Shown here piece by piece: positions 1,385 through 17,640 of a DNA stretch of 28,809 nucleotides. Within the stretch, counting starts at the first letter, position 1; the number at the start of each line of letters is the position of its first letter. Below the pieces are notes generated by a model that did no database searches, had not been told where the DNA came from, and saw nothing but the letters and a program-made list of their open reading frames with translations. Made by a program: the position numbers and the translations under genes. Source of the DNA: a virus; IMG/VR virus record IMGVR_UViG_3300020060_000023, positions 1 through 28,809 of that record; one strand, given 5' to 3'.

Positions 1385-1418
1385 CGCCCACCCTCCAGCG
1401 TCAGTAGATCGGATGCGG

Positions 1419-1850: not shown

Positions 1851-1882
1851 GATAGTCTCCTATAGATTGCACGAATCGACAC

Positions 1883-3215: not shown

Positions 3216-3216
3216 G

Positions 3217-5011: not shown

Positions 5012-5220
5012 GGCTGATCCTTGGCGAGTTCGGCGAGTAGTGCATCGGCAAACTGAACTGCGGTCTGCGCGCATGTACGCGGATATTCAGGACCGTCGAC
5101 GCCGGTCACGAACCCCTGCATCGCCATTGCAGCGAACAACTCGCGCTTAGTCAGGCCGAACTGGCCGGGCCCGACGTTCGATGCGTAGGCTCCTTGGTTG
5201 CCGAGAGTCTTAGCGTCCAT
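5008..5220 (-). CDS. Unknown 70-aa phage protein
   Basis: The core LTKRELFAAMAMQGFVTG is a recurring signature of small hypothetical phage proteins, followed by a helical segment FADALLAELAK. Function unknown. It overlaps the Lar-like gene by 11 bases and couples to the next gene by ATGA. Confidence 0.65.
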   Translation of the reverse strand: MDAKTLGNQGAYASNVGPGQFGLTKRELFAAMAMQGFVTGVDGPEYPRTCAQTAVQFADALLAELAKDQP

Positions 5221-5764
5221 TTCCCGCCTCCTCCCCCGAACCGCGCGGATCGCGGGCGATGGCTACTGGCACCATCGCGCTTATTGATTGGAGTGCAGCC
5301 AGCATTCTTGGCGGCAACGGTTTGAATGCGCTGTCGTAAGCATCAGCAGCTTTTTCTGCATCTTCAATAGTCACAGGTCGATAATCCTTCGCATCCCTCA
5401 ACGCGGTTTCGGCGAGGGGTGTGCGGGCAAGGTCGTACTCCAGAATCGCATCGACAATCAGGCGCTTTGTATCGTTGCGCTCGGCGTCGCTGTCCTCATC
5501 GAAGGAGGTGCGATTCAAAATCGTGTTTGCGGCCTCCTCCATTAATAGGTGATCGCTGCGCTTGCAGCGGGTATTCCACGTTGACTGCGGGTTTATGAAA
5601 TCGTCATCGCTGAACACTACCCCGCACACAAAGCAGCCGACATGGTATGGAGGAACGTGTTGTCCACCGCTCCCAACTTCATCCGGCTTTAGCTTGGCCG
5701 CGCCGCCACAAAACGGACATGGTAAAAGTTCGATCGGCACTGCGTTCCCAGCGGGCGTGTTCAA
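5210..5764 (-). CDS. Lar-like restriction-alleviation / zinc-ribbon protein
   Basis: 184 aa. The N-terminal part has ELLPCPFCGGAAKL (CPFC), then HVGCFVCG (CxxC) and a STWNTR ending, the pattern of the Lar family. Known Lar proteins relieve type I restriction by modulating host methylation/restriction. Here a second half of about 110 residues follows the zinc module, rich in acidic helices, so the protein is longer than a typical Lar and may do more. The TTG at 5764 was chosen since GGGAGAGCAGC precedes it and it overlaps the upstream stop (TTGA). Confidence 0.65.
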   Translation of the reverse strand: MNTPAGNAVPIELLPCPFCGGAAKLKPDEVGSGGQHVPPYHVGCFVCGVVFSDDDFINPQSTWNTRCKRSDHLLMEEAANTILNRTSFDEDSDAERNDTKRLIVDAILEYDLARTPLAETALRDAKDYRPVTIEDAEKAADAYDSAFKPLPPRMLAALQSISAMVPVAIARDPRGSGEEAGNGR

Positions 5765-6387
5765 GCTGCTCTCCCAAGTCGTTGTAGGTAGTTCGCCTCG
5801 AACATGGCTTGCGCGAATCCTGGTGGCGTTGCACTGCGCAGGTTCGCCCGCTCCTCGCTCGGCGGCATGGTGTGTATGCGGGTGTCCGTGGGATCGATCC
5901 GTTGCTTCTGCGGCATGACGAGTCCGTTGCCGGTCCACAGGCACGTCTTCTTCGGATAGGTGTCGCCCTCTCCGCCCGGGTATCCGGCGTAGTCGCAGGG
6001 ATCGAACGTGTGATCCGCCTTGCGCCAGTAGGTGGAGATCGTGCTGACCGGGTTCTCGATGAAGTAGGGGACGCCGAGCGTTTCCAGGATGTCCGCGGAA
6101 TGGGCGAACAGTTCGATGGCCTCAGCCAGCGCGAACAGCCCCTTGCCCTTGAACCAGCGCGCGCCAGAGACTGCCAGATCGGTGCATGGTGTAAACGCGC
6201 AGCCGAATACCCAATCGCGCTGTGGCGCTCTCCAGCGGCGTATGTCGGCACCCACGCGGATGACGTTGCCAACCCGTGCCTCACCCTTCGGATGCTGCGA
6301 GTCAACCGACCAGCACTCCACGCCGGCATCAGCCCAAGGCTTAGCCATCGTGTCGGTCAGGTTGAACAGGAACAGCGCGGATTTCAC
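5761..6387 (-). CDS. DNA cytosine-methyltransferase-like phage protein
   Basis: 208 aa. FTPCTDLAVSGARWF and the ENPVS motif at about residue 113 resemble motif IV and the ENV-like motif VI of C5-cytosine methyltransferases as found in compact phage homologues; the later YPKKTCLWTGNGL block also fits that group. The classical PCQ loop is replaced by TPCTD. Known full enzymes are longer, so this may be a minimal or divergent enzyme, or one modifying another base. It lies next to the Lar-like gene, forming an anti-restriction pair. Confidence 0.62.
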   Translation of the reverse strand: MKSALFLFNLTDTMAKPWADAGVECWSVDSQHPKGEARVGNVIRVGADIRRWRAPQRDWVFGCAFTPCTDLAVSGARWFKGKGLFALAEAIELFAHSADILETLGVPYFIENPVSTISTYWRKADHTFDPCDYAGYPGGEGDTYPKKTCLWTGNGLVMPQKQRIDPTDTRIHTMPPSEERANLRSATPPGFAQAMFEANYLQRLGRAA

Positions 6388-6426
6388 AATCTCATTCCCT
6401 CTCTCATCGTGACAGTGGCGCGGGGG

Positions 6427-6693
6427 TTAGGCGGATGCTTTGGCGAGGGCTGCGCATACGGCGTGCCAATCGCTCGTAGGAATGCGACCGCCGGCCTCTA
6501 CCGCAGCTGCTAATCCGCGCAGCGCCGCAACAAGATCGTCATGCGCATTGCAGGCGCGAACGATGAAGTCGCGCGTCTCTTCCCAATTCGGGCAATTACT
6601 CACTTGCATCGTGCAGATGTTGTCGAAGGTCGGCCGATCAGCCCGAATCACTGTGCCAAAGGTTGTCCACGGCGTCTGCGTATGCATGCCCAT
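6427..6693 (-). CDS. Unknown small phage protein
   Basis: 88 aa. MHTQTPWTTFG near the start and EETRDFIVRACNAHDDLVAAL in the middle form the pattern of a common small protein of phage early regions. No function known to me. GGAGG stands nine bases before the ATG at 6693; a second ATG at 6687 is possible. First gene of the GC-rich leftward block. Confidence 0.6.
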   Translation of the reverse strand: MGMHTQTPWTTFGTVIRADRPTFDNICTMQVSNCPNWEETRDFIVRACNAHDDLVAALRGLAAAVEAGGRIPTSDWHAVCAALAKASA

Positions 6694-6774
6694 CTCCAAA
6701 ACCTCCAATGGTGTGAGTGGCGATTTGGGGGCGCTTACGCTGCGTACGATGACAACAGCAGGCCCCCGCGATTA

Positions 6775-7431
6775 TCAATCCGAGTGGTTGAGCGTCAGGC
6801 CCATGTAGCAGCTAGGACCGGCGCAGCCGAGAGCATCGACAGGAACAGGCTGGTTGAACCTGACCATGATGTAGAACCTCTGACCCGGCACGAGCCTAAA
6901 GTCGAAGTTGGAGACGGGGCTGTGCATCAGCTTCGCTGCCACCCCACCAGGACCTACACGCATACGTGTCTTGCCCGCAGCAAAGTCGCCGAGATTGGCA
7001 CTCACACAGCAATCAATGAACGGTCCCGGCATCGTCTCGCTGTGATAGAGCGACAACGACAGACTGGGAGGAATATCGAGAGGGACAACATCCGAAAAGC
7101 CAAACCATCCAGTCTTGGGAACGTTGTAGAACAGCGGATGGGAGCCCTGCGCATAAGGGAACGGCTGCAACGGGCTCGTAGCGTTGATACGCCCGAACAC
7201 GGGCTTCATGTCCGTGGTGTCAACGTTGTTGACGTTCTGCCCGTTCCCGTAGTTGTACGAGAGGTTCAGGCGAGTGATGCGGCCAGGGGGGACAGGGGGC
7301 GGTGGGTCGCTGGGACAAGCTCCGGCTACGGAGTTGGTGACGCTCAGGAAAGCACCGGGAACAGAGCCTTGGACATTGCCACAGACTGTTACGCCGTCTA
7401 CAGTGATGGTTCTACGGGATGTAGTTGTCAT
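6775..7431 (-). CDS. Unknown beta-rich protein, moron candidate
   Basis: 218 aa, not recognised. The sequence is rich in G, S, P and aromatic residues with alternating hydrophobic stretches (SLSLSLYHSE, DFRLVPGQRFYIMVRF), suggesting a beta-sandwich; a PPPPVPP linker lies near residue 50. There is no signal peptide or helix. It stands alone between two blocks, with 66 non-coding bases downstream and a structured 5' leader. The ATG at 7431 is preceded by GGAGACAAGCAAC, the leader seen at other first genes here. A host-surface or lysogeny-conversion role is one guess. Confidence 0.55.
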   Translation of the reverse strand: MTTTSRRTITVDGVTVCGNVQGSVPGAFLSVTNSVAGACPSDPPPPVPPGRITRLNLSYNYGNGQNVNNVDTTDMKPVFGRINATSPLQPFPYAQGSHPLFYNVPKTGWFGFSDVVPLDIPPSLSLSLYHSETMPGPFIDCCVSANLGDFAAGKTRMRVGPGGVAAKLMHSPVSNFDFRLVPGQRFYIMVRFNQPVPVDALGCAGPSCYMGLTLNHSD

Positions 7432-7708
7432 GAGGTGTTGCTTGTCTCCTTTTGTTAGCTCCCCTGTCGGGGATGAGTGCAGTCGAAAAGAAGACTGCGC
7501 GTGTTGCATGTAGCGTGTTCTGTGCAGTCTCTCCTGCTGTCACTAGTTGAACTGTTCTGTGCGCAATTCTCGTCGCTCGTCTAGTCGTCACGCTCGCTTG
7601 GAGGGTGTGGCGGTTAGCAACTTCCGCCGCTGTCTGTCTATGCAGCGCATTCCGAAGATTTCAGCTACTACGCTCCCGCGCCCTAGTTTCTTCGCACACC
7701 CGTAGAAC
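7432..7708 (-). other. Non-coding leader region with two stem-loops
   Basis: No gene seen. On the - strand, a perfect 6-bp stem GCAGTC/GACTGC with an 8-base loop and a CCCC/GGGG stem lie just upstream of the ribosome-binding site of the 6775-7431 gene. A GTAGAAC site (7702-7708) lies at the right end, just past the stop of the next gene. No convincing promoter was found. Confidence 0.4.
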
Positions 7709-8005
7709 TCAAATGGCCTCGTAGTCAACCAACTCTGCAATCTTCTGGAGGGTGCTATAATCTTTCACGCACCTAATCGCGTCTGCGATCTTCCCAGCGT
7801 GCGTGTTCACCCATTCATATCGATCGACTTCCTCCCGAGTAGCAAAGACGCCCCACGGCAACTCTCCCTTCTTCGGAAGTTTGGTGGTGTGATAGGACGG
7901 ACCCATGATCCAAGATCGGGAAGTCTCGCCGATGATCTCTCGTTCTTGCCACTCGCGTTTGTGTTGTCGGCCAAGAGAAGCCCACACTTTGTCACCGACT
8001 TTCAT
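7709..8005 (-). CDS. Unknown 98-aa phage protein
   Basis: MKVGDKVWASLGRQHKREW opens like a small beta-barrel (KOW/Tudor-like) domain in which a basic strand follows a V-W pair; EREIIGETSRSWI continues the strands. The second half is helical (ADAIRCVKDYSTLQKIAELV). No function recognised. Its ATG overlaps the stop of a 24-aa membrane peptide (ATGA), so it is the third gene of a three-gene coupled unit. Confidence 0.6.
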   Translation of the reverse strand: MKVGDKVWASLGRQHKREWQEREIIGETSRSWIMGPSYHTTKLPKKGELPWGVFATREEVDRYEWVNTHAGKIADAIRCVKDYSTLQKIAELVDYEAI

Positions 8006-8076
8006 AGCAGCGCTATCCCAAGCAGCGAAGCGCCTACTAAAACCAAGATACCTACCAACTGGTAGAGGAGTTTCAT
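8002..8076 (-). CDS. 24-aa hydrophobic membrane peptide
   Basis: The peptide reads MKLLYQLVGIL then VLVGASLLGIALL: one charged residue at the start, then a single transmembrane-length helix filling the rest. Start and stop both overlap neighbours by ATGA, and GGGAGCCCA precedes the ATG, so translation is likely. No family recognised. Such tiny membrane peptides in phages may affect lysis, superinfection or envelope stress. Confidence 0.5.
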   Translation of the reverse strand: MKLLYQLVGILVLVGASLLGIALL

Positions 8077-8393
8077 TGGGCTCCCTGCGGGATGAGCGAG
8101 ACGGACAGGTCTATGTCAAGCGAAGAGCCGCTGTCTGTCTGCGCATCGCTGGAGACTCCCCCAGAGGCCGAATGCTTCGGCCGATCAGAACAGATGGAGT
8201 TGTACCACTTGCGCTCACGGTGGCCGAGTTCAATACGACACTCGCCGTCAACCTTACCAATAGCCAGCCTTGCTTCATAACAAACGCTGGCGATCCGTTG
8301 GTCATACTCGTCGCCCTTGCGGCGCGCGGCCTCAACACTGAAGATGAGTGAGTTTGCCTGTTCCAGCGCGGCTAACTGTTCACGCGGTGTCAT
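8073..8393 (-). CDS. Unknown 106-aa phage protein
   Basis: Starts MTPREQLAALEQANSLIFSV, a helical N-terminus; ARRKGDEYDQRIASVCYEARL continues it. The last third is Ser/Asp-rich and probably disordered. First gene of a three-gene coupled unit, behind a TTGACA/CATACT promoter about 190 bases upstream. The ATG at 8393 is preceded by GGGAGACACGA, a variant of the shared leader. No function assigned. Confidence 0.58.
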   Translation of the reverse strand: MTPREQLAALEQANSLIFSVEAARRKGDEYDQRIASVCYEARLAIGKVDGECRIELGHRERKWYNSICSDRPKHSASGGVSSDAQTDSGSSLDIDLSVSLIPQGAQ

Positions 8394-8583
8394 TCGTGTC
8401 TCCCACTGTTTCTTGTTTCGGCCTGTACAGTATCTATCGCTCCGCTGCATAGCGTGGGCAACAGGAGGAAGTGATTCAAAGCTCCTAAGCTCTGTATCTT
8501 TGCTTTAATCATTTGATTTTAATAGGCTTTTAACATGGCTCTTAAAGAGCCTTAAGGAGTATTGTACCAAAGCCTACACAACC
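8394..8583 (-). other. AT-rich 5' leader with stem-loop
   Basis: No gene seen. This is the untranslated leader between the promoter at 8584-8612 and the first gene. It holds GGCTC/GAGCC with a five-base loop around 8538-8552, next to CTTAAG, possibly an attenuator or RNA-stability element. There is no T-run, so I do not call it a terminator. Confidence 0.35.
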
Positions 8584-8612
8584 AGTATGACATGCTAGTG
8601 TTCTACTGTCAA
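8584..8612 (-). promoter_or_regulatory. sigma70 promoter for leftward unit 8393 to 7709
   Basis: On the - strand TTGACA (8612-8607), a 17-base spacer, then CATACT (8589-8584). A GTTCTAC site (8600-8606) lies in the spacer directly after the -35 box, well placed for repression. Confidence 0.65.
8600..8606 (+). promoter_or_regulatory. GTTCTAC operator-like site
   Basis: GTTCTAC between the -35 and -10 boxes of the leftward promoter; extended match AGTGTTCTACTGT. One of the dispersed sites described in the findings. Confidence 0.4.
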
Positions 8613-8669
8613 CTGTTGGTTTCTCTTCGATGAGTAGAATGAGAAGAGTGTCACAGTTCTATTTGGTAA

Positions 8670-8879
8670 TCACTTCTGCTCATCTTTTTTCCTTGTGATA
8701 AGAGCCTCGCATACCGGACACCATTGGTACTGCGCGACACGCGCGGCAAGGGCACAAGCCGGACACGTTCCCAAATAGGCCAGTATGCCATCCCACGGCC
8801 CTTTCTTCACCTCAATAGCGTTTTCATTTCGACTCATGTGGCTCTCCGGCGTCGCGTCCTGAATGTCTCGTCTGTCCAC
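8670..8879 (-). CDS. 69-aa zinc-ribbon-like protein
   Basis: CPACALAARVAQYQWCPVC near residues 39-57 gives two CxxC pairs 12 residues apart, as in a zinc ribbon, followed by a Lys-rich tail. The GTG at 8879 is chosen because GGAGACAAGCAAC ends directly at it, the same leader and spacing as other first genes; an internal ATG at 8837 has no such signal. Function unknown; nucleic-acid binding is plausible. Confidence 0.6.
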   Translation of the reverse strand: MDRRDIQDATPESHMSRNENAIEVKKGPWDGILAYLGTCPACALAARVAQYQWCPVCEALITRKKDEQK

Positions 8880-8896
8880 GTTGCTTGTCTCCTGTT

Positions 8897-8917
8897 CTAT
8901 GCATCAATCTATGCATC
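8897..8917 (+). repeat. Tandem CTATGCATC repeat upstream of 8879 gene
   Basis: CTATGCATC occurs twice with a three-base spacer (8897-8905 and 8909-8917), a 12-base period. It lies directly before the leader of the - strand gene and contains the palindrome ATGCAT, so it could be a tandem operator. Confidence 0.45.
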
Positions 8918-8996
8918 GTAAGAGCTATCCGACTGATCCTCTTGTGATTGTCCTTCACAGTCCCATTCAGCGTAGCGACAACCAAAAGCCCCAACA

Positions 8997-9029
8997 CAGC
9001 GCCCTTCCATCACGAAGGCAAAGGCGCTG
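8997..9029 (-). terminator. Strong stem-loop after the 9041-9469 gene
   Basis: CAGCGCC (8997-9003) pairs with GGCGCTG (9023-9029), extended by CTTCC/GGAAG-type pairing with a short bulge. It lies just past the end of the - strand gene. The following T-tract is weak (TTGGGGCTTTTGG on the - strand), so termination is likely but not certain. Confidence 0.4.
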
Positions 9030-9040
9030 TAGTAGAACGT

Positions 9041-9469
9041 CTATTCGGTCACTCTACGTTTACGAGATGCTATCAATTCCTTCTCGGTGGGTTTCCGGAG
9101 CAGCTCGGCCCATGTATCAACACCTGCGTGAAGCCGATCTAGAACAATCGTCTCCTGAGTCCCTGCTTCCTTTGCTCTCCTTGTAACCTCCCCGCGAGTA
9201 ACACTCTGCCCTGCCACGATGTAGTTCTGTTGTACCCTGAAAACCAGTACCCCCTCTTTGGATGACTTCAAAGAGACCTTCACGTTCAGGCGCTTGGCCT
9301 GCGCGTACACTTTCGTGGACACATCCTTGAGTTCCACGTTCTTAAGCAGCAAAGCGTCCCCAACCAACTCCCCATTGATCTCTTTAGCTATCTGGAGATT
9401 TCCTAGAGGTAACGTTGATGCGGCTGCTCGATGTGGAGCTTTGGCGTTTCTCTTGATTGTGTAGTCCAT
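9041..9469 (-). CDS. Unknown 142-aa protein
   Basis: MDYTIKRNAKAPHR is basic at the start. The middle repeats short strands and charged turns (LKNVELKDVSTKVYAQAKRL), and VSLKSSKEGVLVFRVQQ suggests a mixed alpha/beta fold. The C-terminus is helical and basic (RKPTEKELIASRKRR). Not recognised; nucleic-acid binding is possible given the charge. The ATG at 9469 follows GGGAACAGCGACA, a variant of the shared leader, which favours it over a longer frame. Confidence 0.58.
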   Translation of the reverse strand: MDYTIKRNAKAPHRAAASTLPLGNLQIAKEINGELVGDALLLKNVELKDVSTKVYAQAKRLNVKVSLKSSKEGVLVFRVQQNYIVAGQSVTRGEVTRRAKEAGTQETIVLDRLHAGVDTWAELLRKPTEKELIASRKRRVTE

Positions 9470-9503
9470 TGTCGCTGTTCCCTCGTTGTCTGATGTTGCG
9501 AGC

Positions 9504-9531
9504 ACCATACTACCACGTAGGGTAAAAACAA
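9504..9531 (-). promoter_or_regulatory. Candidate promoter for the 9469-9041 gene
   Basis: On the - strand TTGTTT (9531-9526), 16-base spacer, TATGGT (9509-9504). A weak match, but it is the only reasonable one in the 69-base gap before the gene. Confidence 0.3.
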
Positions 9532-9538
9532 CACCCGT

Positions 9539-9832
9539 CTACAAGACTGGAGGTGTCTGTAATGGCTGACAAGCCCTGAGAGCCCGTAGGAACCTTCCAA
9601 TGCCGGAGACATTCACCCTCCAGTGGGCCGGAGTGTCGTCTGCCTCCTCGAATGCCAGCTCCAGGGCATTTCCAGCTTGTATCAATTCTGCAACTCGGAG
9701 CGTAGCGCGTGCCATATCGACCTCCCAGTCGTAAGAGCTTCCCTCTCTATCCTCCTGCACCATCCTCCCGAATCGGGTCATGACGGACAGGACATCCATT
9801 GGGGTGCGGCCTTTGTGCTGTTTCTCGTTCAC
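9539..9832 (-). CDS. Unknown 97-aa phage protein
   Basis: GTG start at 9832, preceded by GGAGACACC. RATLRVAELIQAGNALELAFEE is two helices; a basic stretch RFLRALRAC follows. Probably an alpha-helical small protein; function unknown. The stop of a putative 30-aa ORF lies nine bases upstream, so both may be read together. Confidence 0.55.
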   Translation of the reverse strand: MNEKQHKGRTPMDVLSVMTRFGRMVQEDREGSSYDWEVDMARATLRVAELIQAGNALELAFEEADDTPAHWRVNVSGIGRFLRALRACQPLQTPPVL

Positions 9833-9841
9833 GGTGTCTCC

Positions 9842-9934
9842 TTACTCTTTCAGGAAATAAGGATAGGTTGTGTTCAGGTAACTAAATATGAACAGATTGT
9901 GTGTTTGGGTGTCGCTTTGCTGTTTCTTACGCAA
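9842..9934 (-). CDS. Possible 30-aa peptide
   Basis: TTG start at 9934, 30 residues (MRKKQQSDTQTHN..., ending YPYFLKE), basic start and aromatic end. GGAGGACAAGCAAC lies upstream, matching the shared leader, but the spacing to TTG is longer than usual. Its TAA directly touches the GGAGACACC site of the next gene. It may instead be a decayed gene whose ATG was lost. Confidence 0.35.
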   Translation of the reverse strand: MRKKQQSDTQTHNLFIFSYLNTTYPYFLKE

Positions 9935-10064
9935 TGATAGTTGCTTGTCCTCCTGTGTAGCACTGTAGATGCCTCTGTGGCTGCGTAGAACGCTCTACAA
10001 GGCGATCTCTTGATTTAGAGCATACCGTGGCACTCTAGAACTAGAGAACGCCTTAGACAGCGGC
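9935..10064 (-). other. Non-coding gap with two palindromes
   Basis: No gene seen. Contains the GCGTAGAACGC site (9983-9993) and a perfect palindrome CTCTAGAACTAGAG with a two-base centre (10033-10046). A leftward terminator or operator region between two units. Confidence 0.35.
9983..9993 (+). promoter_or_regulatory. GCGTAGAACGC operator-like palindrome
   Basis: GCGT-AGA-ACGC is a hyphenated palindrome. The same 11-mer occurs on the opposite strand at 13816-13826, with flanking similarity. Confidence 0.4.
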
Positions 10065-10274
10065 CTAGGCTGTTTTAGAGGGGCCTGGTCTAAACGTCTC
10101 AGCGTCCTCAATTTCGGCGGCTTTTAAAACACGATAGACGACCTCACCCATTGGTTGAATGCGCGGGGTGCTGAAAATGCCCCACTCTTTTGCGCAGTCG
10201 GCAATATCGTTGTTCGTGATCCCGTCGCCTCTGTCGTTTGATTCCCAGCGCTTCTTAAACTGATCTTTAGTCAC
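10065..10274 (-). CDS. Unknown 69-aa protein, last gene of micro-gene operon
   Basis: Starts MTKDQFKKRWESNDRGDGITNNDIADCAKEWG (split: MTKDQFKKRWESNDRG, then DGITNNDIADC); this reads as a short helix-rich domain. VVYRVLKAAEIED ends it. The GTG at 10274 overlaps the stop of the zinc-ribbon gene (GTGA) with a GGAGAAA site upstream. Function unknown. Confidence 0.55.
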   Translation of the reverse strand: MTKDQFKKRWESNDRGDGITNNDIADCAKEWGIFSTPRIQPMGEVVYRVLKAAEIEDAETFRPGPSKTA

Positions 10275-10426
10275 GATATTTTCTCCGCTGTTTTGGGCTC
10301 TACGTCCTCTCGTTGACACTGAGGGCATGTGTCAGAAGCTACAGCCGTCCAATTCCCTGCCCAGCAGGCTCCACAGGAGCACTCGTAGGACAGCAGGTAG
10401 GTGGCAGACTTGTATTTGAAGCTCAT
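10271..10426 (-). CDS. 51-aa zinc-ribbon-like protein
   Basis: 51 aa with CSCGACWAG and CPQC separated by about 12 residues, a rubredoxin-like or zinc-ribbon arrangement. Preceded and followed by overlapping genes (ATGA upstream, GTGA downstream). Role unknown, possibly binding nucleic acid or protein. Confidence 0.55.
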   Translation of the reverse strand: MSFKYKSATYLLSYECSCGACWAGNWTAVASDTCPQCQREDVEPKTAEKIS

Positions 10427-10632
10427 TTGGGTGTCTCCCCTTCTGGGGACGGATAGCGCAGGTCGATGATCTCGTTCTTCAGCTCGTCTACTAGCTGGCT
10501 CAGCGCCTTACACCACGCGAACATTTCATCATCGAACGGACCCTGCCAGTGGTGGAACTTGCCGGGATGGTCAATGAGCCGCCAGTACCAGCGACCCGAG
10601 TTAAGCGGGAGCTGCGCTGTGTCGGGCCTCAT
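10423..10632 (-). CDS. Unknown 69-aa protein
   Basis: WYWRLIDHPGKFHHWQGPFDDE is an aromatic-rich beta stretch, then LSQLVDELKNEIIDLRYPSPEGETP gives a helix with an acidic turn. It resembles small phage proteins of unknown role. ATGA overlaps on both sides. Confidence 0.55.
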   Translation of the reverse strand: MRPDTAQLPLNSGRWYWRLIDHPGKFHHWQGPFDDEMFAWCKALSQLVDELKNEIIDLRYPSPEGETPK

Positions 10633-10691
10633 ACAGCCCCCTTCGCAATCATGATGACGGCAACAGTTAGCCAGGCGATCAGGCGATTCAT
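10629..10691 (-). CDS. 20-aa hydrophobic membrane peptide
   Basis: MNRLIAWLTVAVIMIAKGAV: a single hydrophobic helix of about 14 residues with an Arg near the start and a Lys near the end. Both ends overlap neighbours by ATGA. Its only support is position, coupling and composition; it could be a translational bridge rather than a functional product. Confidence 0.42.
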   Translation of the reverse strand: MNRLIAWLTVAVIMIAKGAV

Positions 10692-10873
10692 GCTGCCATG
10701 TCCCCAGCGGTAACGACTTCCCAAAGATCGGTAGAAGGCGCTGCGCTGTGTACTACGCCAAGCGTGCTCATTTCGATGCTCTCGCAGCGCAGGCATTCGT
10801 GGATGATCTCTTTCAGCCGATGGTCAATACGCGGCTTGGAGCGATGCGGGCAATTGGCTGGGCACTTGTTCAT
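10688..10873 (-). CDS. 61-aa Cys-pair protein
   Basis: MNKCPANCPHRSK has CxxxC, and CLRCES another Cys pair about 20 residues later, consistent with one zinc site. The remainder is Ser/Ala-rich. ATGA overlaps on both sides. No family recognised. Confidence 0.52.
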   Translation of the reverse strand: MNKCPANCPHRSKPRIDHRLKEIIHECLRCESIEMSTLGVVHSAAPSTDLWEVVTAGDMAA

Positions 10874-11121
10874 GCTGCACCGGCCTTACGGGACAGCGCC
10901 CGCAGATACTTCCGACCAGCAGCCGTCGCAATACAGCCGAAGTACGGCTGCTGCATGTGACCAGGCGGTTTGTCCATCGCCGGAACGATGTCGAGAAGAT
11001 CAGGCGCTTTCTTCTGGATTGAGCGGAGCCGGCCAGCATTGGCGTAGCCCCACACGTCTGCGCCTTTCACCACTCCGCGCAGCTCGGCGATTTCCTCGAC
11101 GGTGAGAGTCACGGCGCTCAT
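10870..11121 (-). CDS. Unknown 83-aa protein
   Basis: TLTVEEIAELRGVVKGADVW is a helical opening, and FGCIATAAGRKYLRALSRK is a basic C-terminal segment. Possibly a small DNA-binding or regulatory protein, but no motif proves it. ATGA overlaps on both sides. Confidence 0.55.
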   Translation of the reverse strand: MSAVTLTVEEIAELRGVVKGADVWGYANAGRLRSIQKKAPDLLDIVPAMDKPPGHMQQPYFGCIATAAGRKYLRALSRKAGAA

Positions 11122-11258
11122 GCCTGCGCCCTCGCCATTGCGTCTGCGTTGTGCTCTGCCAAGGCTTTGGCTAGGCGCGCATCCTGCGCAGCGGAGCGGG
11201 TCACAAAAAGATTGTGACTACGGATGTAAAGCTGATTGCGTAGGGACATGCGTTTCAT
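11118..11258 (-). CDS. 46-aa basic helical protein
   Basis: MKRMSLRNQLYIRSHNLF, then AQDARLAKALAEHNADAMAR, an amphipathic helix. AGGAGCTGCCAA precedes the ATG at a normal distance. ATGA overlaps on both sides. No function recognised. Confidence 0.52.
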   Translation of the reverse strand: MKRMSLRNQLYIRSHNLFVTRSAAQDARLAKALAEHNADAMARAQA

Positions 11259-11464
11259 TTGGCAGCTCCTTCGGATGCGTCCTGCACCCATCGAGCGCCT
11301 ACCTCCTCAAACCTCGCACCGTCCGCACCTTCGCTATCGGTGATCTCGCCTGCGAAGTCGCCGTCTATCCACAGGTGCGCGGGGCGGTCCCCGAAGAACA
11401 ACGAAGCGCCGTGCTTGTCCACCAACACAGCCAGATCAACTAGAAAAGCCTCTGTCTTGTACAT
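11255..11464 (-). CDS. Unknown 69-aa protein, first gene of coupled operon
   Basis: Starts MYKTEAFLVDLAVLVDKHG, a helix, followed by LWIDGDFAGEITDSEGADG, an acidic turn region. The leader GGAGACAAGAGAC ends directly at the ATG, matching other first genes. It leads eight overlapping genes to 10065. Function unknown. Confidence 0.57.
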   Translation of the reverse strand: MYKTEAFLVDLAVLVDKHGASLFFGDRPAHLWIDGDFAGEITDSEGADGARFEEVGARWVQDASEGAAK

Positions 11465-11595
11465 GTCTCTTGTCTCCTGTTACGTGTGTGGTGTTGCGTG
11501 TTCAGCGTGTAGCGGCTGACAGAGCCTTTTCAGGTGCTACGCATTGAAGCGAAGCGGAAAGCCCCCAAAAAGGCTCAAGCAGAAGCTATAGGGGA
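11465..11595 (-). terminator. Gap with decayed terminator module
   Basis: No gene. GAGCCTTTT (about 11521-11529) and AAAAGGCTC (about 11566-11574) form an inverted repeat; the strand also carries the repeated module GCATTG-AGCG-AGCGGAAAG-CCCAAAAAG that recurs at 12725-12757. Read on the - strand this follows the 11596-12000 gene and could end its transcript; the T-run is present, the stem weak. Confidence 0.35.
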
Positions 11596-12000
11596 TTAGC
11601 GTGTCCAGTAGGCCACGCAGGAAAACTCAACGGACGTGTAGTCCATCTGGAGTTCACGCGCTGCCTGTTCCCAATCGATGCAGGTAAAGGGCCACACATC
11701 GCAACCGGCAGGAGTGCCCAATTCCTCGCAAAGCTCTTGCGTGTAGGACTGGAAGTAACTGTCCCGTATGAGCGTGACCGGATACCAATCGCCTTCCCAC
11801 TGCTCATCTCCACCGTTGCCCTTGCACTCTTCTAGCAAGGCTTCAAGCTCTTGTAGCTCGGCGAAGAGCGTGTCTTGGTCCGCGTTGCTGTCTTCTCCGA
11901 GGTCTACGGGACCGGATTCGCGGAGCTGGCGGAGGTGCTCAACGCGCTCGATAACGTCGCGGAGGTCGATTACATCGTCTGTGTTGCTGATCGTTGCCAT
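11596..12000 (-). CDS. Unknown acidic phage protein, 134 aa
   Basis: The N-terminal half is an acidic helical region (VIERVEHLRQLRESG, LFAELQELEALLEE). The second half is a compact domain: VTLIRDSYFQSYTQELCEELG, then WPFTCIDWEQAARELQMDYT. The pattern 'I-x-x-x-x-F ... IDWE-x-AA-x-x-L-x-x-DY' recurs in proteins of many tailed phages as I recall; antirestriction has been suggested for similar ones but I cannot confirm it here. GAGGACACGCAAC ends at the ATG. A single-gene transcript is likely. Confidence 0.62.
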   Translation of the reverse strand: MATISNTDDVIDLRDVIERVEHLRQLRESGPVDLGEDSNADQDTLFAELQELEALLEECKGNGGDEQWEGDWYPVTLIRDSYFQSYTQELCEELGTPAGCDVWPFTCIDWEQAARELQMDYTSVEFSCVAYWTR

Positions 12001-12065
12001 GTTGCGTGTCCTCGGTTGTAACGTGTTGCGATGGGAAACATGGCCGTTAGGCCAGCTACCAAAAG

Positions 12066-12200
12066 CTATTCGCCCTCGTTATGCATTCGGCACAGAGAGC
12101 GAGCGGCGTACAAGTCGGTGACACTCTCGACCACTTCACCTGTCACGTCGTCAACCAGGTCGTATTCGCCTGTGTACTCATTGGGATGCACGATTGTCAT
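12066..12200 (-). CDS. 44-aa acidic protein
   Basis: 44 aa: NEYTGEYDLVDDVTGEVVES is a short beta-rich acidic stretch, then LYAARSLCRMHNEGE. GGGACAAGCAACA directly precedes the ATG, the shared leader. First gene downstream of the TTGACA/TATGAT promoter. Role unknown. Confidence 0.5.
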   Translation of the reverse strand: MTIVHPNEYTGEYDLVDDVTGEVVESVTDLYAARSLCRMHNEGE

Positions 12201-12218
12201 TGTTGCTTGTCCCTTGTC

Positions 12219-12232
12219 GATGCTACTCAGCG
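12219..12232 (+). repeat. Copy 1 of GATGCTACTCAGCG
   Basis: The 14-mer lies in the leader of the 12200 gene; the second copy is at 13316-13329, and flanking bases are also similar. Confidence 0.45.
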
Positions 12233-12271
12233 GTAGCGAATCCAACTAATCATGTCTCTTGTACAGGACCA

Positions 12272-12299
12272 ATCATACTCACTCTCTAACACTTGTCAA
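12272..12299 (-). promoter_or_regulatory. sigma70 promoter for the 12200 gene
   Basis: On the - strand TTGACA (12299-12294), 16-base spacer, TATGAT (12277-12272). A GTAGAAC site (12302-12308) abuts the -35 box on its outer side. Confidence 0.62.
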
Positions 12300-12301
12300 C
12301 A

Positions 12302-12308
12302 GTAGAAC
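12302..12308 (+). promoter_or_regulatory. GTAGAAC operator-like site at promoter
   Basis: Site ACAGTAGAACCGT touching the -35 box of the leftward promoter; one half matches the perfect operator at 13698 exactly. Confidence 0.4.
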
Positions 12309-12367
12309 CGTACTAAAACACTACCGTTCGTCGGCTAGCAAGATAAACAGCGACCACGAGAGCATCA

Positions 12368-12634
12368 CTACAGCGGCTTGTTGGCCCTGATGGCCTTGAT
12401 AACGTGCACAGGATCAACGCTTAGAGCTTTCAACAGCGCTCTGGCCGGTCCTTGCGGCTCTCTCCTCCCCTGTTCCCAATTACGGACAGTGGACACAGGA
12501 ACGTCTATGAGCTTGGCAAAGGATGCCTGGGATAGTCCTGTCCGCTCTCGAATGGAGCAGACATCCATCGCTCTTACGATGGCATCCATTTGGTGCATGC
12601 TCTCTACGAGCTTGCTAAAGAGCTTCTTGTCCAT
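12368..12634 (-). CDS. XRE-family helix-turn-helix regulator, NadS/HigA-like
   Basis: 88 aa. Residues 27-57 form a helix-turn-helix (IRERTGLSQASFAKLIDVPV), followed by TVRNWEQGRREPQGPARALL, the signature of the NadS/HigA antitoxin branch of XRE proteins. Known members repress their own promoter and neutralise a RelE/HigB toxin. No toxin-like gene stands beside it, so a solo phage regulator is more likely. It has its own promoter with repeated half-sites. The ATG at 12634 is chosen from protein alignment with family members; its ribosome-binding site is weak. Confidence 0.75.
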   Translation of the reverse strand: MDKKLFSKLVESMHQMDAIVRAMDVCSIRERTGLSQASFAKLIDVPVSTVRNWEQGRREPQGPARALLKALSVDPVHVIKAIRANKPL

Positions 12635-12667
12635 TGGTCCGCTTCGCTGCCTGGGAATGTGAGCAGC

Positions 12668-12695
12668 ATTGTACGCCAATGGCTTAGTGCGTCAA
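12668..12695 (-). promoter_or_regulatory. sigma70 promoter of the HTH regulator with repeat half-sites
   Basis: On the - strand TTGACG (12695-12690), 16-base spacer, TACAAT (12673-12668). CAATGGC occurs twice (12677-12683 and 12693-12699) with a 16-base period, and CGCCA/TGGCG form inverted half-sites, placed for autoregulation. Confidence 0.65.
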
Positions 12696-12699
12696 TGGC
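12677..12699 (+). repeat. Direct repeat CAATGGC inside the regulator promoter
   Basis: Two CAATGGC copies spaced 16 bases start to start, about one and a half helical turns, covering the spacer and the -35 box. A likely operator for the XRE protein. Confidence 0.45.
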
Positions 12700-12750
12700 G
12701 CATAGCGGCCTTCACGGTAGTGCGCATTGGAGCGCTAGCGGAAAGACACC

Positions 12751-12778
12751 CAAAAAGAACCCCTCACATGGAGGGGCT
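12751..12778 (-). terminator. Rho-independent terminator after the 12806-13033 gene
   Basis: On the - strand CCCCTC-CATGT-GAGGGG is followed by TTCTTTTT. It ends the transcript of the 75-aa gene and insulates the HTH gene behind it. Confidence 0.75.
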
Positions 12779-12805
12779 TGGAGTGAATGCGAGCTGGAAG
12801 GGGGA

Positions 12806-13033
12806 TTAGCTACCGAGAGGAGGATACCTACCCTGCATCCTCTCGATCCTTTCATTCTGCCGTATGGCACGCTCGTTAGCCTCTTCGGCCTTGAACGCCT
12901 TGAAGTACCAGCCGTTGAACTCACGGAGCGCATTGAATGCCCGACTGTAGCCGGCGCTTGCGCTCTTCCACGCCGGTGTAGCTTTCACGGAGTCAGGTGT
13001 TAGCCCAACGGCATTCCAAAAGAGACACAGCAC
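12806..13033 (-). CDS. Unknown phage protein, 75 aa
   Basis: GTG start at 13033. The middle SAGYSRAFNALREFNGWYFKAF is a helical segment resembling small phage proteins with an 'ALR-FNG-Y-KAF' pattern, followed by a basic charged stretch (ANERAIRQNERIERM). No function assigned. There is no clear ribosome-binding site; TATACT and TATAGT lie just upstream, so the mRNA may be nearly leaderless. First leftward gene from the central region. Confidence 0.5.
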   Translation of the reverse strand: MLCLFWNAVGLTPDSVKATPAWKSASAGYSRAFNALREFNGWYFKAFKAEEANERAIRQNERIERMQGRYPPLGS

Positions 13034-13315
13034 TATAGAGACCAGTATAGACAGCCGTACTACTGTTGCACTAGCTGCAGATGTGCAGATCGCTCCTACA
13101 GCGTGCTAAGGACTACACCAGGCTTGTAACAGGGCTGTGGTAGGCATCCACCATGTGTTCTACCCTCCTCCAAATCCTCTAGCAGCCCTCTCGCAGCCCA
13201 TGCCATTTCCCTTAACCCCCTGTAGACGCTCTTAAGCACAGAACCCAGGTAGTTAGATGCGATTCTAGCGGGCTAAGACATTGCTATGCCCCGGACTTCC
13301 TGTGTTCCTCACAGT

Positions 13316-13329
13316 GATGCTACTCAGCG
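13316..13329 (+). repeat. Copy 2 of GATGCTACTCAGCG
   Basis: Same 14-mer and orientation as 12219-12232; followed in both by a related AGCGA-A/T-CC segment. Confidence 0.45.
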
Positions 13330-13653
13330 TAAGCGATACCCAAATGCTATTGACAAGCCCATAAGTAGAACAGTTGTTTCATTTGTCATAACGTTGATTG
13401 CGTACTACAGGCCGACAGAGACAGCCCGTTGTGCTCATTACACAGGGTAGCCACGTACAGGCCAGTCAGCAGCCGTTTAGCTAGGCTTGAGGGCGGGGGT
13501 AGCAGTTGGGCTTGGACCTGTGGAAGTCGGGTGTGCCCCCTATACGTAGAGCAAACCTCAGCTCAAATCTCTCCCTGAACGGCTGTTCATCTATAGATAT
13601 ACGTGGCCTCTGCACCAAATCTATAGTTGCTCTACTCCCTTTCTGAGTATTCC

Positions 13654-13683
13654 TTGGACAAATGAGTTCTATTGTGTTATAAT
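13654..13683 (+). promoter_or_regulatory. Rightward sigma70 promoter
   Basis: TTGGAC/TGGACA (13654-13660), 17-18-base spacer, then TATAAT (13678-13683). It faces the + strand small genes. The palindrome at 13698-13710 lies about 15 bases past the -10 box, over the expected start. Confidence 0.7.
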
Positions 13684-13697
13684 GGTAGGATACTGCT

Positions 13698-13710
13698 ACT
13701 GTTCTACAGT
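13698..13710 (+). promoter_or_regulatory. Perfect operator-like palindrome ACTGTTCTACAGT
   Basis: ACTGT-TCT-ACAGT has perfect 5-bp arms around a 3-base centre. It sits just downstream of the rightward -10 box, the best of the dispersed GTTCTAC sites. Confidence 0.5.
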
Positions 13711-13726
13711 GGCAGATAGGCAGTAT

Positions 13727-13852
13727 TTGATATACGCGTTTGTGTGGGCGCTGACGCTGTTTCCTATGCTAGGCGCATACACCACAAAGGCATGGATACA
13801 GACGGGCCTTACAGAGCGTTCTACGCGGTCTGAGGGGCATTGTAGACAGTGA
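13727..13852 (+). CDS. Possible 41-aa membrane protein, first rightward gene
   Basis: TTG start at 13727 with AGGCAG six bases upstream. MIYAFVWALTLFPMLGAYTT is one membrane helix, followed by a hydrophilic, basic tail. A GTG at 13709 in the same frame is an alternative start. It ends 15 bases before the next gene. It contains a GTTCTAC palindrome in its coding part. Function unknown. Confidence 0.42.
   Translation: MIYAFVWALTLFPMLGAYTTKAWIQTGLTERSTRSEGHCRQ
13816..13826 (+). promoter_or_regulatory. GCGTTCTACGC operator-like palindrome
   Basis: GCGT-TCT-ACGC, inverted copy of the 9983-9993 site, with AAGGC on the same side in both. It lies within the small first gene of the rightward unit. 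Confidence 0.38.
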
Positions 13853-13867
13853 CAACGGAGGAGTGAT

Positions 13868-14074
13868 TTGGATAGCCGAGACTTGCCTTTGATACCGCTC
13901 GGATCGAAGGTCAACGGTGGGTACACGGTCGGGGCTGTGCTCTGGCTGGGAGAGCGGTATTACATGATGACCAAGGGTCGAGGTGACGTGGCGCTCATGC
14001 CTGCGGACAGCGTGGAGCTGGACACCCTAGAGGCTTCTGTTCCTTCTCGTTTGGGGGCTCCTTCGGATGATTAA
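13868..14074 (+). CDS. Unknown 68-aa protein
   Basis: TTG start with GGAGGAG upstream, a strong ribosome-binding site. The sequence is a small beta-rich domain (GGYTVGAVLWLGERYYMMT) followed by an acidic stretch. No family recognised. Its stop overlaps the next start (ATGATTAA). Confidence 0.55.
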   Translation: MDSRDLPLIPLGSKVNGGYTVGAVLWLGERYYMMTKGRGDVALMPADSVELDTLEASVPSRLGAPSDD

Positions 14075-14381
14075 CGCGCTGAGATCAGTAGCCGAAGAAC
14101 TGCGCCTTGAGGCTGACGAGAACATCGAAGGACAAAACTCTTGGCATCGAAGGCTCGCGTCCCGTATTGAGGCGGCTGTTGCCTCTGTGGCGTGGCAGCC
14201 AATCGAGACAGCCCCGAAGGACGGAACTTGGATATTGGCCGTAGCCCCTCAGAGTGTGTGCCCGCCAAAGCATCATGTTGTCAGGTGGACTAAGGGCGGC
14301 AATCTGGGCTGGTGGGGAGATTGGGGTGGTCACGAGTTCTTCGGATTCACCCAGTGGATGCACCTTCCACCGCATGCCTAA
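14067..14381 (+). CDS. DUF551-like protein
   Basis: 104 aa. The first 50 residues are helical. The rest, AWQPIETAPKDGTWILAV to FGFTQWMHLPPHA, matches the pattern of DUF551-type domains: W-P-I-x-x-x-P-K-D-G, central W residues, and a terminal W-M-x-L-P. The function of this domain is unknown but it is common in temperate phages. Overlaps both neighbours by eight bases. Confidence 0.7.
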   Translation: MINALRSVAEELRLEADENIEGQNSWHRRLASRIEAAVASVAWQPIETAPKDGTWILAVAPQSVCPPKHHVVRWTKGGNLGWWGDWGGHEFFGFTQWMHLPPHA

Positions 14382-14790
14382 GCGGGAAGAGGACAAGCCT
14401 GGTTGGTTTGGCACCCAATACGAGCTGGAAGGAAAGACGTATGGGACGTGTCTGTGGGCTGAGAGTCTTGAAGAGGCTTTTGGGGTCGCTTCGCTGCGCA
14501 ACATCGGGGAGACAGTGAGCGGCTATTGGTTTGCTCCCTTTGAGCTGCCTTCCAAGCTCTTGAGGAAGCGCACAGTGTCTCTAGAAGCCCTCCACGGAGC
14601 TGTCTTTGTAGGCTGGCTAGCATCGTGCGCAGGCGTAGCCGACTCCCAACAAATGCTCTCTGACACAGGCCTGATACATGAAATCATCCACTACATGCAA
14701 TACGGCCCTATCAACTACCCAAAGAAGGAGCTAATCAATAGAATGAAAGCCTTAGAGGAGAAAGTACCGGGTTTGGTAGCTCTTCGATGA
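14374..14790 (+). CDS. Unknown 138-aa protein
   Basis: Start ATG at 14374, overlapping the previous stop (ATGCCTAA). The N-terminus is basic (MPKREEDKPGWFGTQYELEG), then ESLEEAFGVASLRNIGETVS suggests a short alpha/beta domain; EALHGAVFVGWLASCAG is a hydrophobic helix. The end is helical. Not recognised. Coupled to a 42-aa membrane protein by ATGA. Confidence 0.58.
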   Translation: MPKREEDKPGWFGTQYELEGKTYGTCLWAESLEEAFGVASLRNIGETVSGYWFAPFELPSKLLRKRTVSLEALHGAVFVGWLASCAGVADSQQMLSDTGLIHEIIHYMQYGPINYPKKELINRMKALEEKVPGLVALR

Positions 14791-14915
14791 GTAGGACTGA
14801 CAGGGATGTGATGAGGCCCGGCGACGAATGGCGGGTACTCACATGGGGAGACTGGGCAATCATGATCTCAGCAATTGCCATCGAAATCGCCTTGATCCTC
14901 ACATTCGGTGTTTGA
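14787..14915 (+). CDS. 42-aa membrane protein
   Basis: A hydrophilic basic start (MSRTDRDVMRPGDEWR), then WAIMISAIAIEIALILTFGV, one transmembrane helix to the end. The start overlaps the previous stop by ATGA and the stop overlaps the next GTG by eight bases, so translation is very likely. Function unknown; the bordering genes give no hint. Confidence 0.55.
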   Translation: MSRTDRDVMRPGDEWRVLTWGDWAIMISAIAIEIALILTFGV

Positions 14916-15489
14916 CAAGTTCCTCGGGAAGCCCCCTCCCGTACAAAACATCGAAGAGCCCCCAAAAAGACCCGGAAGGCCCCGTAAGCCCGACTCAGAG
15001 CTGAAACAGCCTAGGAGAGACCCGGCCCGCTACTCCAAGATCACAGGCCGACTGCTTCCATCGAAGAGAAAACAAAAGCTAAAGCGCACCCACTACAAGA
15101 TCAGACGGAAGTGGTGGAGAGATAAGAGACGAGAAGTCAGAGCCGCTACAGGCTTAGCCTACGAAAGACAGTACAACGCTACGCTCAGAAGGAAGTACAT
15201 CCAGTCCCGCTCCATAGCCAAGCTCTACGCCAAGAGGAAGGGACTCGATCCCGACCAGTGGTACCAACTCACGTACGCACAGTGGGTGGTCTTGTGGGCT
15301 ACCAGCTCTGACGTAGAGCACCCCACCAAGGGACGATTGAAAGCAGCGCAAGCGACATCCAACCCCATCTCCTGCCGCTGGAAAGACTGCACATGGGCCT
15401 CTCAGATCGACAAGGAGAAGCCTTGGATGGCAGGGAATGTGGTGATTAGGTGGAATGGAGCAGCATTGCCCAACAAGCTAAGTGCATGA
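14908..15489 (+). CDS. Very basic DNA-binding-like protein, 193 aa
   Basis: GTG start at 14908. An RPGRPRKPD motif near residue 23 resembles an AT-hook. From residue 50 to 110 the protein is extremely basic and helical (RTHYKIRRKWWRDKRREVRA; KLYAKRKG). The end is less charged, with WYQLTYAQWVVLWATSS. I recognise no catalytic motif; HNH or GIY-YIG residues are absent. Possible roles are nucleic-acid binding, homing-type accessory protein, or transcription control of the genes that follow; this is inference. Confidence 0.6.
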   Translation: MFDKFLGKPPPVQNIEEPPKRPGRPRKPDSELKQPRRDPARYSKITGRLLPSKRKQKLKRTHYKIRRKWWRDKRREVRAATGLAYERQYNATLRRKYIQSRSIAKLYAKRKGLDPDQWYQLTYAQWVVLWATSSDVEHPTKGRLKAAQATSNPISCRWKDCTWASQIDKEKPWMAGNVVIRWNGAALPNKLSA

Positions 15490-15495
15490 TATATA
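15466..15495 (+). promoter_or_regulatory. Candidate promoter before the structural-gene block
   Basis: TTGCCC (15466-15471), 18-base spacer, TATATA (15490-15495), at the end of the basic-protein gene. A second TATAAA lies at 15561-15566 without a good -35. Confidence 0.3.
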
Positions 15496-15754
15496 ACACT
15501 ACCACTATATCACTCTACTTATTTGCACCAACTTGGGGAACTTTCGTCGCTCTTTGTTGTTATAAAGGGGTCCGTGGTGAATCTTAGCCGGGACGCATGA
15601 GGCGAAGCAGAGCCTCCGTGCACAAGCGGTAACACGTTAATCCCCCGCTATTACTTTCACGGTGTCTGCCCCGTCGCAACAAGACAGACTGGCGCCCCGC
15701 GGCGAAACATCAACAAGTAACAACAAACATCACTCTGCGGAGTGAGGAGACAAC
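15490..15754 (+). other. Structured 5' untranslated region
   Basis: No gene. Stems: GAGGC/GCCTC (15599-15616), AGCGG/CCGCT (15625-15649) and CACTC/GAGTG (15731-15744), the last abutting the GAGGAGA ribosome-binding site of the next gene, so it may control its translation. GGGACGC and CGTTAAT also occur in the structured block before the holin. Confidence 0.4.
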
Positions 15755-16090
15755 ATGGTAACAACCGAATATAGGGTGCGCCCTGTTCAACGTTACGTTC
15801 TCACCAAATACACCAGCACCACGTCAGACGACGCAGGCGTTGCCCTCGTCGGCGGCAGTCACCCCATCGGGGAGTTCGACAACCTTGAGCGTGCTCTCTC
15901 CGCCAAGGAAGCATTTGAGGCGATCCGTGAGTCTATTCCGGGCCACAAAGAACTATTCGCTGTGGTTGAACGTGGCTTCGACATTATCACCCAAGTCTTC
16001 TACGCCGACACGAAAGAATCGGCGGAAGCGCTCGCCAAAGAAATGTTCCAGAAGACCGGAAACGAGTGGCGAGTGTTCTACCCCGCATAA
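15755..16090 (+). CDS. Unknown 111-aa protein
   Basis: ATG preceded by GAGGAGACAAC, close to the shared leader. The protein alternates strands and helices: YVLTKYTSTTSDDAGVALVG, LERALSAKEAFEAIRE, ELFAVVERGFDIITQVFY and ESAEALAKEMFQKT. Possibly a small alpha/beta fold. First gene of the block that leads to the structural genes; abundance is suggested by the strong RBS. Function unknown. Confidence 0.58.
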   Translation: MVTTEYRVRPVQRYVLTKYTSTTSDDAGVALVGGSHPIGEFDNLERALSAKEAFEAIRESIPGHKELFAVVERGFDIITQVFYADTKESAEALAKEMFQKTGNEWRVFYPA

Positions 16091-16131
16091 CAAGCAACAC
16101 CCCTCCCCAACACGGCGACAAGCAACTCTCC

Positions 16132-16689
16132 ATGTCTACCCATCAAGCTCTCAGCGCTCTCATCACCCGCAACAAGGCGGTTGACGAATCCACCAACCGT
16201 CTGTCCCAGTTCCTCGTCCAGCGTTCAGTGCCGAACGTGGCACGCCTCACCACGGCGTTCACCGGCCCCGCTGCTGTTGATCTCGCGGTTGTCCCCGGCC
16301 TCCTCATCACCAACAGCGTCGGCTTCAACGGCGGTGCTGCTGTCGTTGGTGGGCGTACTTATTCGTTTCGAGCCTACCTGCCTTGCACCATCAACGGCAC
16401 CTCGGGCGGAACGATTGACTGGTCGGGCGGCACCGCCACGATCTCGGCGTTCCAAGCCACGGGCCTCAATCACATCACGGCCACAGCGCCGAACTTGCTG
16501 AAGACCACCACGTTGGCCGGTCTCACGATGAACGCTGCCGCTGCATACACCCTCTCGGTTGTCGAAGGTGTGTTCACTGCGTCCAGCTCGGGCTCGTTTG
16601 GTCCGCGCCTCGCGACGTTCACAGGCACGGCTACCGCTCCGATCCTCGGTGCCGGTGCGTACCTCGAACTGACTGAAATCGCTTCGTAA
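16132..16689 (+). CDS. Beta-rich probable virion protein, paralogue A
   Basis: 185 aa. Helical start (STHQALSALITRNKAVDEST), then a beta-rich Gly/Thr/Ala domain. It shares with the next gene the blocks RS-PN near residue 31, VGGR-Y-AYLP, GVF--S-SGS-G-R, and the ending AYLELTEIA. Two such adjacent copies suggest capsid decoration or tail-appendage subunits. GGCGACAAGCAACTCTCC precedes the ATG, the shared leader with a short insertion. Confidence 0.62.
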   Translation: MSTHQALSALITRNKAVDESTNRLSQFLVQRSVPNVARLTTAFTGPAAVDLAVVPGLLITNSVGFNGGAAVVGGRTYSFRAYLPCTINGTSGGTIDWSGGTATISAFQATGLNHITATAPNLLKTTTLAGLTMNAAAAYTLSVVEGVFTASSSGSFGPRLATFTGTATAPILGAGAYLELTEIAS

Positions 16690-16691
16690 GT

Positions 16692-17252: not shown

Positions 17253-17389
17253 TGTTCTATCTATTGGTTGCAGCCGCTGCACTGTGCGTTGTCTATCTGG
17301 GCATGAAGGCCCTTGGCTATAGCCCGAGTGCAGTGTGGAAAGCCGGCATCAAGTGGATAAAAGACACTTGGGCCAACTGGCAGAACTGA
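17252..17389 (+). CDS. 45-aa membrane protein
   Basis: MFYLLVAAAALCVVYLGMKA is one transmembrane segment, then a short basic aromatic region (WKAGIKWIKDTWANWQN). Start overlaps the previous stop (TAATG). It lies before a second membrane protein and the lysis genes, so a holin, pinholin or spanin-helper role is possible. Confidence 0.5.
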   Translation: MFYLLVAAAALCVVYLGMKALGYSPSAVWKAGIKWIKDTWANWQN

Positions 17390-17633: not shown

Positions 17634-17640
17634 CAAGTTT

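Follow-up and report, generated by a model that had tools for sequence, protein, structure and literature searches.

Does a seven-base word that recurs between the genes of a phage mark the binding sites of a regulator, and which protein would read it? The question is raised by GTTCTAC in the virus record IMGVR_UViG_3300020060_000023, the whole 28.8 kb of which is here called the window. Between 7.43 and 13.87 kb the word is found nine times in non-coding DNA and not once in coding DNA, although most bases there are coding. The set is real and non-random and is probably regulatory, of a type that phages often carry. On balance, it is best explained as a set of operators at which a putative phage regulator of an unrecognised family would repress initiation at three promoters.

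Enrichment and form of the GTTCTAC sites

The stretch from 6.8 to 13.0 kb is occupied by leftward genes and the DNA from 13.87 kb onward by rightward ones, with a large intergenic control region (13.03-13.87 kb) in between. A preliminary description had placed nine copies of GTTCTAC in this DNA, and every coordinate proved exact. These copies and the one-mismatch copies of interest are as follows.

7702-7708, minus strand: GTTCTAC, immediately 3' of the stop codon of the leftward gene 7709-8005
8600-8606, plus strand: GTTCTAC, in the spacer of the leftward promoter 8612-8584, about -29 to -23
9032-9038, minus strand: GTTCTAC, 2 nucleotides past the stop codon of the leftward gene 9041-9508
9985-9991, minus strand: GTTCTAC, within the arm GCGTTCTACGC (9983-9993), upstream of the leftward gene 9539-9832
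12302-12308, minus strand: GTTCTAC, 2 nucleotides upstream of the -35 of the leftward promoter 12299-12272, about -43 to -37
13157-13163, plus strand: GTTCTAC, within the large intergenic control region
13365-13371, minus strand: GTTCTAC, in the control region, downstream of an isolated TTGACA
13701-13707, plus strand: GTTCTAC, within the palindrome ACTGTTCTACAGT (13698-13710), about +11 to +17 of the rightward promoter 13655-13683
13818-13824, plus strand: GTTCTAC, within the arm GCGTTCTACGC (13816-13826), upstream of the rightward gene at 13868
13666-13672, plus strand: GTTCTAT, one mismatch, candidate for a second site within the spacer of the 13655-13683 promoter
13057-13063, plus strand: GTACTAC, one mismatch; CTACTGTTG is common to this copy and the 12302 site
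13402-13408, plus strand: GTACTAC, one mismatch, in the control region

Counted against controls, the excess is far above expectation. The non-coding DNA of the region (2.6-2.8 kb) should hold 0.36 copies under an order-1 model (2.76 kb counted; Poisson p 2e-10 for the nine observed) and 0.68 under an order-2 model (p 5e-8), and GTTCTAC is its most over-represented 7-mer. Across 300 simulations, the lowest p reached by whichever 7-mer did best was 8e-7 at order 1, 3e-7 at order 2 and 6e-9 at order 3, and the p of GTTCTAC was matched in 0 of 300 order-1 and 0 of 300 order-2 simulations. The probability that nine of nine copies would fall in non-coding DNA by chance is about 2e-4. Both the enrichment and the non-coding restriction are direct observations. 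A gapless motif search of width 8 independently arrived at GTTCTAC, with a result better than all 8 nulls. Copies with one mismatch number 16 in non-coding versus 11 in coding DNA, although the non-coding bases are fewer; GTACTAC, GCTCTAC and GTTCTAT are the forms commoner in non-coding DNA, and no non-coding variant is changed at C4 or A6.

The whole window contains 17 copies, where shuffles give 2.19. Apart from the nine, the copies in the window and those in contig G002 fall within coding sequence: seven of the other eight in the window are in-frame TTC-TAC (Phe-Tyr) codons on the coding strand, and the eighth, at 7409, is antisense to gene 6775-7431, at its start. Coding copies were discounted as sites, since the protein sequence accounts for them.

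The sites had been described as hyphenated palindromes. Arms beyond GT-TCT-AC are indeed present at three of the nine (3 pairs at 13698-13710, 2 pairs each at 9983-9993 and 13816-13826), but the other six have none; the term was therefore overstated, and the palindrome was rejected as the defining form. The two GCGTTCTACGC sites are enclosed by a 35-nucleotide inverted repeat (9969-10003 and 13806-13840, 80% identical), so sites 9985 and 13818 are not independent. No strong companion element was found within 15 nucleotides of the sites, and Rfam and tRNA scans gave no matches.

Promoter overlap and competing explanations

Four sigma-70 promoters stand out as the best in the region: 12299(-), 13655(+), 12695(-) and 8612(-). 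The third belongs to the gene of an XRE protein and is treated below; the others are as follows.

12272-12299, minus strand: sigma-70 promoter TTGACA-16-TATGAT, 11/12 consensus
8584-8612, minus strand: sigma-70 promoter TTGACA-17-CATACT, 10/12 consensus
13655-13683, plus strand: sigma-70 promoter TGGACA-17-TATAAT with TG, 11/12 consensus, leading into the rightward genes (lysis and structural)

At three of the four promoters GTTCTAC lies inside the RNA polymerase footprint (-50 to +20 of the inferred starts), an overlap that is directly observed. Random placement of the nine sites gave the same overlap in 3% of trials (permutation p 0.03), and in 5% with a wider window. The three contacts reported earlier are borne out: the word stands directly after the -35 of 8612(-), 2 nucleotides upstream of the -35 of 12299(-), and at +11 to +17 of 13655(+). 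The fourth strong promoter, that of the XRE gene, has its own putative operator instead of GTTCTAC. Of the 7 sites that could be classified, 6 are oriented along transcription (p 0.06); with so few sites, the directional rule of stoperators is not claimed. Judged by its gene content the phage is temperate, because a tyrosine integrase and an excisionase-like protein are encoded in the continuation contig.

The operator reading is based on the nine copies against 0.36 expected, the 9:0 split between non-coding and coding DNA, the motif search, the overlap with three of four promoters, the pattern of variants and the temperate gene content. We propose that GTTCTAC, or the looser GTWCTAC, would be the core that a sequence-specific DNA-binding regulator recognises in the early and control region of this temperate, podovirus-like phage. 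By binding within the footprints of promoters 12299 and 8612 (leftward) and 13655 (rightward), this regulator would block initiation by host RNA polymerase, which may keep both arms silent for lysogeny or for timing. The remaining intergenic copies may be secondary sites that strengthen silencing, possibly through an elongation block. We infer a bound, repressing protein encoded by the phage itself; this regulator would belong to an unrecognised family and would not be XRE. Both the confinement to non-coding DNA and the promoter overlap support the earlier idea of a dispersed operator set. Should the sites be operators, they would mark out lysogeny control in a lineage of uncultivated temperate phages whose capsid protein is of N4 type, and would point to a repressor outside current family libraries. 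Short of evidence for elongation control or for a new family of repressors, they would be a known kind of element.

Several observations weigh against this reading. The conserved part is 7 bp only, a short core with little-conserved flanks, and its position relative to the promoter varies (upstream, spacer, downstream). When most of the other early and replication genes were compared with PHROGs and Pfam, no further regulator appeared; no binder was identified for GTTCTAC, and no DNA-binding family besides XRE was recognised. For 10870-11121 and 14908-15489, two candidate binders, the predicted structures were uninformative (mean predicted local distance difference test scores of 58 and 57). 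No divergent relative that keeps the control region was found among viral contigs, named phages and plasmids, using DNA similarity and six proteins (capsid, terminase, XRE, ArdA-like, 10870-11121 and 9041-9508). Finally, with an automatic gene caller, by which two sites are lost, the window ranks about 20th of 64 loci by best non-coding 7-mer, many of the loci above it being simple repeats. As a rough yardstick, over-represented non-coding words are also strong at other phage loci, so signals of this kind are not rare.

A chance or neutral excess, due in part to local duplication and to the word having been picked after looking, seems unlikely. Raw counts would allow it, as the top 7-mer count of the region, with the expectation of the word ignored, reaches 9 in 2-22% of nulls (for the whole 6.1-kb region, in 7 of 300 shuffles and in about 13-22% of Markov-3/4 simulations). 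What makes the excess significant is therefore that the word keeps to non-coding DNA and has a low expectation, and the expectation-corrected p lies below the best of any 7-mer in the order-1 and order-2 simulations. Duplication is seen in the inverted repeat that joins 9985 and 13818, but the flanks of the remaining sites are unrelated. Stoperator-type sites, oriented with transcription and acting away from promoters, keep a small though real share of our belief. The core is asymmetric, 7702 and 9032 lie just past stop codons, and orientation mostly runs along transcription; yet the orientation p is 0.06, the 8600 site is reversed within a leftward operon, and the 9-12 sites are confined to 6 kb with the copies elsewhere coding and no Rep-like protein in the scanned genes.

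That a host regulator binds the sites and is exploited by the phage appears doubtful. This would fit with XRE being the sole phage DNA-binding protein recognised, but the sites are limited to the control region and early genes of this phage, and a literature search for GTTCTAC with "phage" gave no match. We know of no host motif that fits the word. It is very unlikely that the word acts positively or as a signal in RNA, such as part of a phage promoter, an antitermination site or a processing site: the sites are mostly co-directional with genes, but their upstream, spacer and downstream placements around sigma-70 promoters and the lack of both a companion element and an Rfam match speak against it.

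The XRE protein and its putative operator

The XRE protein had been put forward as a candidate binder of GTTCTAC. It is the sole helix-turn-helix protein recognised nearby, and the relevant features are:

12368-12634, minus strand: XRE protein, HigA/NadS/MqsA-like antitoxin type, toxin partner not seen
12674-12700, minus strand: XRE operator candidates, CGCCATTGACG (12690-12700) and the AGCCATTGGCG region (12674-12683), in the XRE promoter 12695-12668

The protein groups with HigA-2/NadS/MqsA-type antitoxins, and the full-length relatives closest to it are the antitoxins in toxin-antitoxin operons of Salmonella (52% identity) and of an Acinetobacter phage (39%). It is without 12 residues found before the helix-turn-helix in those relatives, and in this phage it stands alone, as a solitary antitoxin. 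At the XRE promoter, which has no GTTCTAC, lies the single exact copy of the 11-mer CGCCATTGACG in the window. The identical 11-mer stands about 10-55 nucleotides upstream of the homologous toxin-antitoxin operons of Salmonella and the Acinetobacter phage, in their promoters. Because this pairing of protein and operator is conserved in homologues, there is strong evidence from sequence comparison that the XRE protein would read CGCCATTGACG and control its own gene, not GTTCTAC. The result assigns a specific, putative operator to the HigA/NadS-like antitoxin family.

The earlier statement that the XRE promoter carries repeats other than GTTCTAC is confirmed by CGCCATTGACG and AGCCATTGGCG, which are directly visible there, and the proposal that XRE binds GTTCTAC is contradicted by them. 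This binding is hardly credible, even though XRE is the only recognised protein of its kind near the sites and a helix-turn-helix repressor, SinR, binds the similar 7-mer GTTCTYT (PMC3163267); XRE was rejected as the GTTCTAC binder on account of its different, conserved operator.

Known systems, relatives and gene content

SinR of Bacillus subtilis reads its 7-bp asymmetric site at promoters in variable number and orientation (PMC3163267), and a 7-bp asymmetric word can therefore be a genuine regulator site. GTTCTAC shares GTTCT with that site but differs in the last two bases. SinR is a chromosomal biofilm regulator; the GTTCTYT consensus and a SinR/SlrR protein are not found here, and no SinR-like protein was present among the proteins scanned.

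Repressors of cluster A mycobacteriophages bind asymmetric sites of 13-14 bp; a genome has 20-30 of these, placed in promoters and intergenic DNA and pointing along transcription (PMC9283540, PMC6550527). Like the sites of L5, Bxb1 and TipsytheTRex, GTTCTAC is a short asymmetric word, intergenic and dispersed in a temperate phage, with some copies in promoters (here three of the nine) and some beside stop codons. In contrast with the cluster A sites, which are without dyad symmetry, the core here is 7 bp with arms at three sites, and the 9-12 sites lie within 6 kb and not genome-wide. The cluster A Rep protein, with a helix-turn-helix and a stoperator domain, had no recognised homologue among the scanned early and replication genes, although a very divergent Rep could escape. 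The sigma-70 type promoters and the podovirus-like phage are also unlike cluster A. The stoperator likeness drawn in the preliminary description thus holds for dispersion, shortness, asymmetry and intergenic location, but not for site number or for the clustering in 6 kb. By analogy, the set plausibly works like the operator part of a cluster A system. T1-like phages (Stevie, TLS) have intergenic repeats of 21-22 bp, of unknown function and likened to stoperators (PMC4319613, PMC11447400); these too are asymmetric and mostly intergenic, but they are longer, unrelated in sequence, clearly directional and found in lytic phages.

The only close relative is IMG/VR contig 3300020061_000022, with 100% identity over 4262-17840. 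It runs on into two overlapping contigs, and the offsets that these contigs share suggest a circularly permuted genome of about 66 kb. The major capsid protein is N4-type, with 41% identity to that of Stenotrophomonas phage StenR_269, and the gene content includes a family A DNA polymerase, a T7-type helicase-primase and a class II ribonucleotide reductase with an intein. A capsid-protein search of genome contigs gave distant relatives only. In distant relatives by capsid, GTTCTAC is not clearly enriched. Among 2.9 million viral contigs, GTTCTACTGTTGACA plus a -10 pattern was found only in the identical contig and in four AT-rich contigs with the word once or twice.

StenR_269, the nearest named relative, holds ten exact copies of a perfect 12-bp palindrome, TTTAACGTTAAA, mostly intergenic among early genes (record positions 159, 3558, 4473, 5924, 7077, 8701, 13827, 16666, 21959 and 24567). 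It was absent from nine other relatives checked. This dispersed palindrome, to our knowledge not previously described, appears operator- or promoter-like. It resembles GTTCTAC in being dispersed and mostly intergenic among early genes, but differs in its symmetry and sequence, and no integrase is annotated in the StenR_269 record. Stoperator-like genome silencing that evolved independently of mycobacteriophage Rep in a temperate podovirus-like lineage, with an unrecognised monomeric repressor reading a 7-bp word both in promoters and in intergenic DNA, is a rather unlikely prospect; as StenR_269 uses another dispersed word, the lineage would in that case swap words as immunity groups do. The 3-nucleotide loop and the annotated virion RNA polymerase of StenR_269 had also prompted the idea of a hairpin promoter for such a polymerase, which was dropped as the arms are mostly 2 bp. 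The largest protein of contig G002 (1545 residues) had no Pfam match.

The left end of the window (1-4201), which holds an integrase C-terminus (plus strand) and a D12/Dam methylase, departs from the near-identical contig 3300020061_000022 with short matches only, and is a candidate mosaic or assembly junction. At 17841-17857 there are ten differences in 17 bases from the same contig in almost identical surroundings, possibly a hypervariable tract or an assembly error. An ArdA-like protein (phrog_25535) is encoded at 11596-12000 on the minus strand, and the same family is found in phages of Burkholderia, Mycobacterium, Gordonia and Caulobacter. AGGAGACAAGCAAC or a variant, at 7437, 8880, 9940, 11465, 12001 and 12202 (minus strand), mostly directly before leftward start codons, is a conserved, repeated ribosome-binding leader. 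Imperfect intergenic repeats resembling TTTTGGGTGTCGCTTACGCTGAGTAGCATC occur on the minus strand at 8960-9000, 11530-11565, 12215-12250, 12715-12755 and 13312-13350 and on the plus strand at 9900-9940, the best pair being 12219-12239 and 13316-13336 (90%).

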